A DNA stretch of 64,000 nucleotides from Streptomyces sp. B93 (GTDB lineage Bacteria; Actinomycetota; Actinomycetes; Streptomycetales; Streptomycetaceae): the NCBI RefSeq assembly GCF_018070565.1, contig NZ_JAGPXL010000021.1:1-64000 (forward strand). The letters are read 5' to 3'. The notes below the pieces were generated by a model, which worked only from the letters and a program-made list of their open reading frames with translations, ran no database searches and was not told the DNA's origin. Numbering within the stretch: the stretch's first letter is position 1; each line of letters starts with the position of its first letter. The translations under genes and the position numbers were made by a program. Positions 59,687-62,544 of the stretch are shown here, piece after piece.

Positions 59687-59714
59687 AGGTCGCGGAGGGG
59701 TCCGGGAAAGGGTT

Positions 59715-59742
59715 GCGGCGGTACGAGTTCTCGTACCGCCGC
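59715..59742 (+). terminator. Terminator after the Fic-like gene
   Basis: Arms GCGGCGGTACGAG and CTCGTACCGCCGC are perfectly complementary over 13 bp with only TT between them (the inner pairs open as a loop). It starts 29 bp after the stop. Confidence 0.85.
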
Positions 59743-60034
59743 TGGCATGTCCACCGGGTTACCAAGCGTCCTCGATATGTGCCCATCAGGCGGGGTTCTT
59801 TGCCCGTCACCTGGTGCGGCTGGCCCGTAATCGACGGGTCGACGTCGCGTGGGTGCTCGATGTCCATGCTCGGTCCGTGGGGCCAATCCTGCGTCTTAAA
59901 GGTGATCCTTTCGGATGTCCTTTGGTCTCGCGGGCCGTTAACCCCTTTGTACTCCAGGCGCGGGGTAAGCGAAACCCTTCACCGCGCTTCTTTACTTTTG
60001 GGTTCAAAGACGCATCAAACGGGCGCCGCTCGAC
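59743..60034. ncRNA. Candidate 6S-like regulatory RNA (boundaries and strand not fixed)
   Basis: The gap between the Fic-like and HAD genes carries several stem-loops: CATCAGG/CCTGGTG around CGGG/CCCG (59785-59817), CCCGT-AATCG-ACGGG, a long-range TGGCCC/GGGGCCA pairing, and AAAGG...CCTTT (59898-59923). In S. coelicolor, as I recall, the 6S-like RNA scr3559 is encoded between the orthologues of these two genes. The location and structure fit, but I cannot define ends or strand from sequence alone. Confidence 0.4.
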
Positions 60035-60868
60035 TCAGGCGGACGCGCTTCGGCGTCGGCTGGCGTACCAGACGAGACCCGCGGTGGCCGCCGCCGCTCC
60101 TATGGCCGCCGCCGCGACGAGCGCCGGGCGGGGCGGTACGGAGAGCCTGGGGAGCCGCTGCTTGAGGCGTACCGGGCGGTGGAAGTCGAGGATCGGCCAC
60201 CCGCGCGAGAGGGCTTCCCGGCGCAGGGCCCGGTCCGGGTTCACGGCGTGCGGATGGCCGACCGACTCGAGCATCGGCAGATCGGTGGCGGAGTCGCTGT
60301 AGGCGTAGCAGCGGGAGAGGTCGTACCCCTCGGACTCGGCCAGCTCCCTGATCGCCTCGGCCTTGGTCGGGCCGTAGGCGTAGTACTCCACCTCTCCGGT
60401 GTAGCACCCGTCCTCGCCCACGACCATGCGGGTGGCGACCACACGGTCGGCGCCGAGCAGCTCGCCGATCGGCTCGACCACCTCGGCGCCGGAGGTGGAC
60501 ACGATCACCACGTCGCGTCCGGCGGTGTGGTGCTCCTCGATGAGGGACGCGGCCTCGTCGTAGATGATCGGATCGATGATGTCGTGCAGTGTCTCGGCGA
60601 CGATCTCTTTGACCTGCTGGACGTTCCAGCCGCGGCACAGCGCCGAGAGGTACTCGCGCATGCGCTCGATCTGGTCATGGTCGGCGTCGCCGGCGAGGAA
60701 GACGAACTGGGCGTATGCGGTACGCAGCACGGCCCTGCGGTTGATCAGCCCACCTTGGTAGAACGACTTGCTGAAGGTGAGCGTGCTCGACTTCGCAATG
60801 ACCGTCTTGTCCAGGTCAAAGAAGGCCGCTGTGCGGGGCAAGGAGTGGTTTTCCACAAGCCTGAGCAT
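60035..60868 (-). CDS. HAD-IB family phosphatase with C-terminal membrane anchor
   Basis: A 277-residue protein. Residues 11-25 read PRTAAFFDLDKTVIA, with the nucleophile in DLDKT. VVIVSTSGAEVVEPIGELLG supplies the second motif, KAEAIRELAE the Lys and YAYSDSATDLPMLE the acidic motif. A C-terminal helix (ALVAAAAIGAAAATAGLVWY) should anchor it. It matches the SerB-like HAD proteins linked to sporulation in Streptomyces (S. griseus ORF1590 type). The start may lie at ATG 60868 or at GTG 60856. Upstream lies a leaderless micro-ORF on the other strand. Confidence 0.9.
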   Translation of the reverse strand: MLRLVENHSLPRTAAFFDLDKTVIAKSSTLTFSKSFYQGGLINRRAVLRTAYAQFVFLAGDADHDQIERMREYLSALCRGWNVQQVKEIVAETLHDIIDPIIYDEAASLIEEHHTAGRDVVIVSTSGAEVVEPIGELLGADRVVATRMVVGEDGCYTGEVEYYAYGPTKAEAIRELAESEGYDLSRCYAYSDSATDLPMLESVGHPHAVNPDRALRREALSRGWPILDFHRPVRLKQRLPRLSVPPRPALVAAAAIGAAAATAGLVWYASRRRSASA

Positions 60869-60887
60869 AGGCGCAGCCCATTCGGCG

Positions 60888-60893
60888 TAAGCT
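60888..60893 (+). promoter_or_regulatory. -10 element of a leaderless micro-ORF
   Basis: TAAGCT lies exactly 7 nt before the GTG at 60901, an ideal leaderless geometry. A -35 element is not obvious. Confidence 0.55.
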
Positions 60894-60900
60894 GGGGCGC

Positions 60901-60966
60901 GTGGGTTTGCCTGAGAGGGCTCTCGGGTACACCATGGAAGTCACGGATCGTTCGCGACCGTGCTAA
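60901..60966 (+). CDS. 21-residue leaderless micro-ORF (possible leader peptide)
   Basis: GTG 60901 to TAA 60966 encodes a 21-residue peptide starting MGLPERALGY and ending in DRSRPC. It has the right geometry for a leaderless mRNA and is followed within 7 nt by two strong hairpins (60973-61038). Its first codons also form a stem CCTGAGAG/CTCTCGGG (60910-60927). It could be a regulatory leader, a small protein or a chance ORF; there is no run of identical codons as in classical attenuators. The next plus-strand gene is the Tad ATPase operon at 61444. Confidence 0.45.
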   Translation: MGLPERALGYTMEVTDRSRPC

Positions 60967-60972
60967 CCCGGC

Positions 60973-61038
60973 CCGACTCCTCCCCCCCCGAGTCGGCCGT
61001 GGGGACGACCCCCGCTCTCCCCCCCGGCGGGGGTCGTC
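60973..61038 (+). terminator. Two consecutive hairpins after the micro-ORF
   Basis: The first is CCGACTC-N10-GAGTCGG (60973-60996), the second GACGACCCCCGC-N11-GCGGGGGTCGTC (61004-61038, 12 bp perfect). A T-rich stretch (GGGTTTTCTCCTTCTCTCT) follows on the plus strand. The remainder of the gap, 61039-61443, has no gene; it contains CCGTCCACA (61224-61232) and ATATCCACA (61206-61214), near matches to DnaA boxes. Confidence 0.75.
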
Positions 61039-61443
61039 GCATGTCCGGGTGGGTTTTCTCCTTCTCTCTGCGGTCTCGCGCTGTCTGGCCGACCGAGGCG
61101 GCAGTGTCTTGTCATGCTCATGAGTAGTCACGCTGTGTAGCGATCGGACTCCTCTGTGGAAGTCGCACAGGGGTTGCCCGAAGGTCACCGGTTTGGGTGA
61201 AGGCGATATCCACAAGCGTCAGCCCGTCCACAGTTTTCGACCAAGATCCACTTGATTTCCAGAAGCGCTGCACCGTGATTCGAGCGCGACTCGTGGCGAG
61301 TTCATGGCCGGTTCAGTTTCCGAGGCGCGTATGGCCGATTCCTATCGGCCGTTCATATGGAGGCCGATCGCCGGTTCTTCACAGGTTCGGGAATCGCGGG
61401 GCACCAGGGCCGCGCGTGAGAAGCAGCGAAGGGGGAGCAAACT

Positions 61444-62544
61444 GTGGCCGGAACCGTCACCCGAGAACCATCGTCCACCGCCGGAGGCGGCCAGGGCGGA
61501 CCACTGATCGTCACCGAGGACACCGACCTCCTCGACGACCTGCTGCGACTGTGCGCCGCCGCGGGCGCCACACCGGAGGTGCACCACTCGGTGCCGGAAC
61601 GCGGCGGCGGCTGGGAGACCGCGCCGCTCGTCCTGGTCGGCGACGACGCCGCCCGGCACGTCCGAGGGGCCGCACGCCGTCGGGGCGTGGTCCTCGTCGG
61701 ACGCGACCAGGACGATCCCGACGTCTGGCAGCGCGCCGTCAGGATCGGCGCCGACCATGTCCTGATGCTGCCCGACGGCGAGCAGTGGCTCGTCGACCGC
61801 ATCGCCGACGTCGCCGAGGGCGTCGGCCGCCCCGCGCTCACCGTCGGCGTGATCGGCGGGCGCGGTGGCGCCGGAGCGTCCACCCTCGCCTGCGCCCTCG
61901 CCGTCACCTCCGCGCGGGAAGGACTGCGCACCCTCCTGGTCGACGCCGACCCCCTGGGCGGTGGGCTCGACGTCCTCCTCGGCGGGGAGGCCGCCGAGGG
62001 GCTGCGCTGGCCCGCGTTCGCGGGCTCGCGCGGGCGGGTCGGCAGCGGCGCGCTGGAGGAGTCACTGCCCCGGCTGCACTCGCTGCGGGTGCTCAGCTGG
62101 GACCGCGGCGACCGTGTGGCGGTCCCGCCCCAGGCGGTACGAGCGGTGCTCGCCGCGGCCAGAAGGCGCGGCGGCACGGTCGTCGTCGACCTGCCGCGCC
62201 GCATCGACGACGGTGTCGCCGAAGCCCTCGCCCAGCTCGACGTCGGGCTCCTGGTGGTCCCCGCCGAACTGCGCGCCGTGGCCGCGGCCGGGCGGGTGGC
62301 CTCAGCCGTCGGCATGGTCCTGCGTGACCTGCGCGTCGCCGTGCGCGGGCCGTACGCGCCCGGCCTCGACGACCGCGAGGTGGCGCGGCTGCTCGGACTG
62401 CCGCTGGCCGGTGAGGTGCCCGTCGAGGCGGGGCTGCTGCGGCCGAACGGCGGCAAGGCGCCGCCGGGCAGCGGCCGAGGCCCCCTCGCCCGGTTCTGCA
62501 CCGACTTCTGGGAGCGCGCCCTGATCGAGGCGGGTGCCGCATGA
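61444..62544 (+). CDS. CpaE/TadZ-like septum-site-determining (Ssd) protein
   Basis: A 366-residue protein from a GTG with AGGGGGAG upstream. The N-terminal 130 residues resemble a receiver domain (LIVTEDTDLLDDLLRLCAAA, VLVGRDQDDPDVW). The C-terminal MinD-like ATPase has GVIGGRGGAGASTLACALAV (a modified Walker A with Gly-Ala-Ser in place of Gly-Lys-Thr), LLVDADPLGGGLDVLLG and VVVDLPRRIDDGVAEAL. In actinobacteria these proteins head tad-type clusters and are described as septum-site-determining proteins. It is coupled to the TadA gene (ATGA). Confidence 0.9.
   Translation: MAGTVTREPSSTAGGGQGGPLIVTEDTDLLDDLLRLCAAAGATPEVHHSVPERGGGWETAPLVLVGDDAARHVRGAARRRGVVLVGRDQDDPDVWQRAVRIGADHVLMLPDGEQWLVDRIADVAEGVGRPALTVGVIGGRGGAGASTLACALAVTSAREGLRTLLVDADPLGGGLDVLLGGEAAEGLRWPAFAGSRGRVGSGALEESLPRLHSLRVLSWDRGDRVAVPPQAVRAVLAAARRRGGTVVVDLPRRIDDGVAEALAQLDVGLLVVPAELRAVAAAGRVASAVGMVLRDLRVAVRGPYAPGLDDREVARLLGLPLAGEVPVEAGLLRPNGGKAPPGSGRGPLARFCTDFWERALIEAGAA

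Follow-up and report, generated by a model that had tools for sequence, protein, structure and literature searches.

A Streptomyces 6C RNA gene with a probable SigB-type promoter and a predicted additional 5' hairpin between the HAD hydrolase and ssd genes of Streptomyces sp. B93

Introduction

The 6C RNA family (Rfam RF01066) is listed by Rfam as 'Cis-reg'. In Streptomyces coelicolor, the 6C RNA gene is scr3558, the expression of which has been verified and which is printed, in the available part of the source, between the genes for a HAD hydrolase and for Ssd, while the HAD gene has a 6S-like RNA, scr3559, on its far side (PMC8539372). The same text gives, as a personal communication, that mutation of scr3558 was without effect. 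The 6C RNA of S. lividans (SLIV_20498) was detected by RNA-seq, and that of S. clavuligerus was detected only when no read-number filter was applied. In mycobacteria the RNA is called B11. As far as the accessible text goes, B11 of Mycobacterium tuberculosis sits between Rv3660c and Rv3661 and has a SigA-like published promoter (PMC2764107), and mycobacterial B11 acts in trans, repressing its target via either C-rich loop, the loops pairing with G tracts at ribosome-binding sites (PMC10470900).

The S. coelicolor promoter SCO3557p has been described separately. According to the available text, it was read by SigB, SigF, SigH, SigK, SigL and SigM in an Escherichia coli two-plasmid system, its start was mapped with S1 nuclease, and it was credited to the operon of ssd (SCO3557); under osmotic stress it was undetected in vivo, and the text uses neither 'sRNA' nor 'small RNA' (PMC8346170). 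No publication linking SCO3557p to 6C RNA was found in a literature search whose scope most subscription papers lay outside.

Here we analyze a locus in the window, i.e., the whole stretch of 64,000 nucleotides of contig NZ_JAGPXL010000021.1 of Streptomyces sp. B93. A sequence-only reading had described it as a leaderless 21-codon open reading frame, preceded by TAAGCT and followed by two hairpins and a T-rich stretch, that might be a small protein, a leader peptide of the downstream CpaE/TadA operon or the source of a small RNA.

Results

The locus matches the 6C RNA family in sequence, structure and place

A permissive Rfam search revealed that positions 60966-61042 of the forward strand are a full-length match to 6C RNA (RF01066; 45.9 bits, E 8e-5). 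Since this score is 1.1 bits lower than the gathering score of the family (47), a strict Rfam search misses the gene. Matches to ar14, CcsR1, scr4677, ar7, anti-hemB, IS1222_FSE and Guanidine-II were all well under their own gathering scores and were rejected, as was a 6C match on the reverse strand (22.1 bits). A 6C match was found in 52 of the 61 genomes of relatives, with 32 of the 61 passing the gathering score, at the equivalent place, and in 180 of 394 genomes of a class-wide sample.

The core holds two consecutive hairpins, each with at least six C in its loop, as is typical of 6C RNA: one at 60967-61002, the loop of which has eight consecutive C, and one at 61004-61038, with seven consecutive C, which is also the likely end of the RNA. 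Thus, the two strong hairpins of the sequence-only reading are indeed there, and its suggestion of a small RNA was the right one, whereas its statement that no such unit was known overlooked an existing family, as the locus is a 6C RNA gene. The unit is therefore a known RNA gene in a known place, not a new one. The T-rich stretch exists too, but further on and not immediately 3' of the second hairpin, and a scan of 60800-61450 revealed no T-tailed terminator. A predicted 104-nt RNA (60939-61042) folds with -57.7 kcal/mol (z -4.4; none of 200 shuffles reached this), whereas with the start of the reading frame included (60901-61060) z is only -1.7 and 13 of 200 shuffles were as good. Among 36 distinct sequences from families f1 to f3, both 6C hairpins keep their pairing, with some two-sided changes (60969-60999 from C-G to U-A in three sequences, 61014-61028 from G-C to A-U in three) and few unpaired cells, mostly at 61002-61040 (five) and 60972-60996 (three).

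The 6C site lies between a divergent HAD-IB hydrolase gene on the reverse strand (60035-60868, SCO3558-like; TIGR01490, 207.5 bits) and ssd, which encodes a CpaE-like septum site-determining protein (61444-62544, forward strand, SCO3557-like; TIGR03815, 351.4 bits) and is followed by a gene for a TadA-type ATPase. This is the arrangement of both M. tuberculosis, where we take Rv3660c to correspond to ssd and Rv3661 to the HAD gene, and S. coelicolor. We also collected a named set of at least 119 records, chosen by a conserved 38-mer that covers the -10 element and the 5' hairpin (see below), in which only the upstream GTTT, the ends of the reading frame and the neighbors are independent of that choice. 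Among the matches listed there, the HAD gene was adjacent and divergent in all 112 testable loci, and 97 of the 99 testable ones had ssd downstream in the same orientation. Compared with RF01066 as represented by scr3558 and SLIV_20498, the locus thus shares the two hairpins with C-rich loops, the neighbors and the strand of ssd, and differs in an additional 5' hairpin outside the Rfam model and in its score below gathering.

Two further observations concern the HAD side of the locus. The gap at about 59690-60034 may be occupied by an orthologue of scr3559, and a strict Rfam search of the window listed no scr3559-like RNA. Moreover, the stretch at 60877-60890, CATTCGGCGTAA, immediately 5' of the promoter described below, shows fairly good conservation across the Streptomyces order and may be part of the divergent HAD gene's own promoter or leader.

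A SigB-type promoter precedes the 6C RNA

Upstream of the core we found GTTT at 60905-60908 and GGGTAC at 60925-60930, separated by a 16-nt spacer, that is, GTTT/GNNT and GGGTAY-like elements at the spacing of SigB-type promoters. Positions 60895-60939, including both elements and the spacer, are identical to the published SCO3557p sequence in 44 of 45 bases. By analogy with this near-identical promoter, it would be recognized by SigB homologues. While SCO3557p was published, in the available text, as a promoter of the ssd operon (PMC8346170), the first gene 3' of it here is the 6C RNA, which the promoter at 60905-60930 would drive in vivo. If the last base of the printed SCO3557p string is taken as the transcription start, the RNA would begin at about position 60939, 27 nt ahead of the Rfam core. 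The C. glutamicum 6C RNA likewise has a 27-nt 5' extension in the accessible text of PMC4046766. Both ends given here for the RNA of this strain are accordingly predicted ones.

Of 161 loci, 71 had the strict motif 5' of 6C, compared with 0.06% of shuffled upstream sequences; this count leaves out only locus L023, and genome G299 was entered twice in the locus set (L078 and L161). By family, it was present in 50 of 51 loci of f1 (L052 being the single miss), 1 of 1 of f2, 12 of 12 of f3 and 8 of 97 elsewhere, including 0 of 31 in f6, counts that do not represent a random sample, as 80 class-sample regions were hand-picked among the 6C matches listed. We take f3 to be the Catenulisporaceae and f6 the Mycobacteriaceae. 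In the named set, GTTT stood at the exact spacing in all 117 loci among the matches listed. Genome-wide, the promoter pattern had seven matches against nine for its reversed control; as this is the level of chance, the pattern alone is no evidence, but its conserved place is.

The loci of family f6 (L001, L053-L076) have a TGTGTATAGTG-type element 5' of 6C instead of the SigB-type motif, and many of them show a short hairpin, e.g., CTCGGC-TTAT-GCCGAG, immediately before the core.

The 21-codon frame is a chance frame across the promoter

The GTG-initiated frame at 60901-60966 on the forward strand reads VGLPERALGYTMEVTDRSRPC-stop. We followed it in 63 loci of families f1 to f3, a set from which L023 (upstream sequence too short) and L052 (a weak second match in G006) were excluded. 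It was intact in 44 of them, and start or stop was lost in 19, with GTG at the start position in 48 and, at the stop position, TAA in 44 and TGA in one; in the named set it was intact in 99 of 117 loci among the matches listed. All f3 loci have lost it and have kept the promoter and the hairpins, which is one of the outcomes that the sequence-only reading had named as its refutation. Variable columns among 26 distinct 66-mers numbered 12, 12 and 13 by codon position, without an excess at third positions. Close relatives keep the frame since their DNA hardly differs in this stretch, and as the second half of the stretch is invariant at every codon position, the survival of the frame is no evidence of coding. 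As judged from these alignments, conservation acts on nucleotides and not on amino acids, and the open reading frame is a chance frame across the 6C RNA promoter.

The proposed signals of the frame fared no better. TAAGCT, put forward as its -10 element, was present in only 5 of 63 loci of f1 to f3 and in 23 of 117 named loci among the matches listed; owing to this low conservation, and as a consensus scan of 60800-61450 gave no sigma-70 promoter, we rejected it. The stem at the start of the frame does fold, but it lies within the spacer and -10 of the SigB-type promoter, and relatives differ in the half of the stem that falls in the spacer. Both possible start codons, GTG at 60901 and an inner ATG at 60934, are 5' of the implied start at 60939, which is 38 bases past the GTG, so that a leaderless GTG start finds no place; this position is indirect, as the S1 mapping was done in E. 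coli with the nearly identical promoter of S. coelicolor. Hence, the features of the compact transcription unit are in place, but with neither a sigma-70 promoter nor a T-tailed terminator, a unit running from TAAGCT into the frame was not confirmed.

A predicted additional hairpin 5' of the Rfam core

Between the implied start and the core, a further hairpin is predicted at 60939-60964 (forward strand), built on the 21-mer CACGG...CCGTG at 60942-60962, which occurs once in the genome when up to three mismatches are allowed. The hairpin is near-invariant in the Streptomyces order. No position of the block 60925-60962 varied among the 40 distinct f1 sequences, not even third codon positions of the 21-codon frame, and the hairpin's core pairs do not change in the 36 distinct f1 to f3 sequences, so that they offer no covariation. 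In the window, the fold of this hairpin by itself is not exceptional (p 0.10). Its counterparts were compared in 75 loci, made up of a single locus for each genus of f1, f3 and f6 plus every other locus, where the 34 bases before the 6C core had a mean z of -0.70, compared with -0.05 for a control stretch further upstream, and p was 0.05 or less in 15 of the 75. Several families in this comparison, f19 above all, have no such hairpin. A C-rich loop on the upstream hairpin was seen in f9 (1 of 1 locus), f21 (5 of 5), f28 (1 of 1) and f39 (2 of 2), and in 9 of 160 loci overall, against 0.8% of shuffles. The loci with this third C-loop hairpin, at most 45 bases 5' of the core, are L014, L088, L105, L114, L116, L123, L129, L131 and L141. 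The additional 5' hairpin suggests that the 6C family model could be extended.

Discussion

We conclude, with a probability of about 0.9, that the locus is the Streptomyces 6C RNA gene, having a SigB-family promoter and an RNA of about 104 nt with three hairpins that most likely acts in trans. The family match, structure, genomic context, promoter conservation and lack of a coding signature on which we rely all come from the present analysis. Points against this conclusion are the score just below gathering, the failure to detect SCO3557p in vivo under osmotic stress, the reported absence of an effect of scr3558 mutation, the detection of the S. clavuligerus RNA only with the read-number filter removed, and the lack of both a canonical terminator and a specific target in our searches.

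The reading as a leaderless small protein or leader peptide of 21 codons has in its favor that the frame is intact in most loci of both sets. We regard it as extremely improbable, since the implied start lies past both possible start codons, the variable columns show no codon pattern, the start or stop is lost in nearly a third of the f1 to f3 loci and TAAGCT is rarely kept; that relatives lose the frame while their hairpins stay speaks equally against a peptide controlling the CpaE/TadA operon. The operon might instead be controlled by the RNA itself, if SCO3557p were the operon promoter and the hairpins an attenuator or riboregulator in a cis-acting ssd-tad 5' leader, with 6C RNA as a product of early termination. 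Such a leader would agree with the published assignment of SCO3557p, with the presence of ssd downstream on the same strand in almost all testable named loci and with the Rfam type of the family. However, the first hairpin core is about 400 nt from ssd here, and the distance between element and ssd varies from about 340 to more than 600 nt among the matches listed; besides, RT-PCR in M. tuberculosis gave no product spanning B11 and Rv3660c, as stated in the available text of PMC2764107, and B11 acts in trans. Taken together, these points make a cis-acting leader quite unlikely.

A different question is whether selection on the block 60925-60962 is chiefly for the binding of a regulator to a DNA site that overlaps the start, and not for an RNA hairpin. 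Invariance extends even to loop and bulge positions, the core pairs never change and so give no covariation, and the fold of the 5' hairpin alone is unexceptional, all of which a DNA site would explain. On the other hand, a site shared with other promoters of a regulator should recur, and the 21-mer occurs once in the genome; other families' sequences at this place fold better than the control, and some of their hairpins there have C-rich loops. We consider a DNA site unlikely, and favor an RNA hairpin.

As for the action of the 6C RNA, the SigB-family promoter would start the RNA at about 60939, and the near-invariant 5' hairpin would be followed by the two 6C hairpins with their runs of eight and seven C. 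These exposed loops probably pair with G-rich ribosome-binding sites, most likely in trans and on several mRNAs, the translation of which would thereby be lowered in stress or sporulation. This is drawn from mycobacterial B11, which resembles the present RNA in its two C-rich loops and its location between ssd and HAD genes (available text of PMC2764107 and PMC10470900); as the loops are equivalent, the same action is the best inference. The SigA-like published promoter of B11 is unlike the SigB-type motif of the window. The targets would be mRNAs of this kind; no specific one was found, and the ribosome-binding site of ssd ranked 7th among 20 crude gene starts in the window. The 6C RNA of S. 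coelicolor has been reported to rise in sporulation (available text of PMC8388888, citing other work), in keeping with recognition of the promoter by SigF and SigH. Two reports speak against a strong role: the personal communication on scr3558 mutation cited above, and a study in Actinoplanes that did not recover its SCO3557 homologue among the genes with permanent upregulation by SigH (PMC11205660).

What the analysis adds is modest, namely the assignment of SCO3557p to 6C RNA and a third, upstream hairpin, along with the removal of a false small-protein candidate. It joins two published items: the 6C RNA gene and, immediately 5' of it, a promoter that six sigma factors recognize. On balance, we find it reasonably probable that SCO3557p is really the 6C RNA promoter, that 6C RNA is a conserved output of stress and sporulation sigma factors in the Streptomyces order, and that the 5' hairpin is a functional element beyond the Rfam model, with a third C-rich loop in four other actinobacterial families. 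If true, the link between promoter and 6C RNA would explain the rise of this RNA reported in sporulation.
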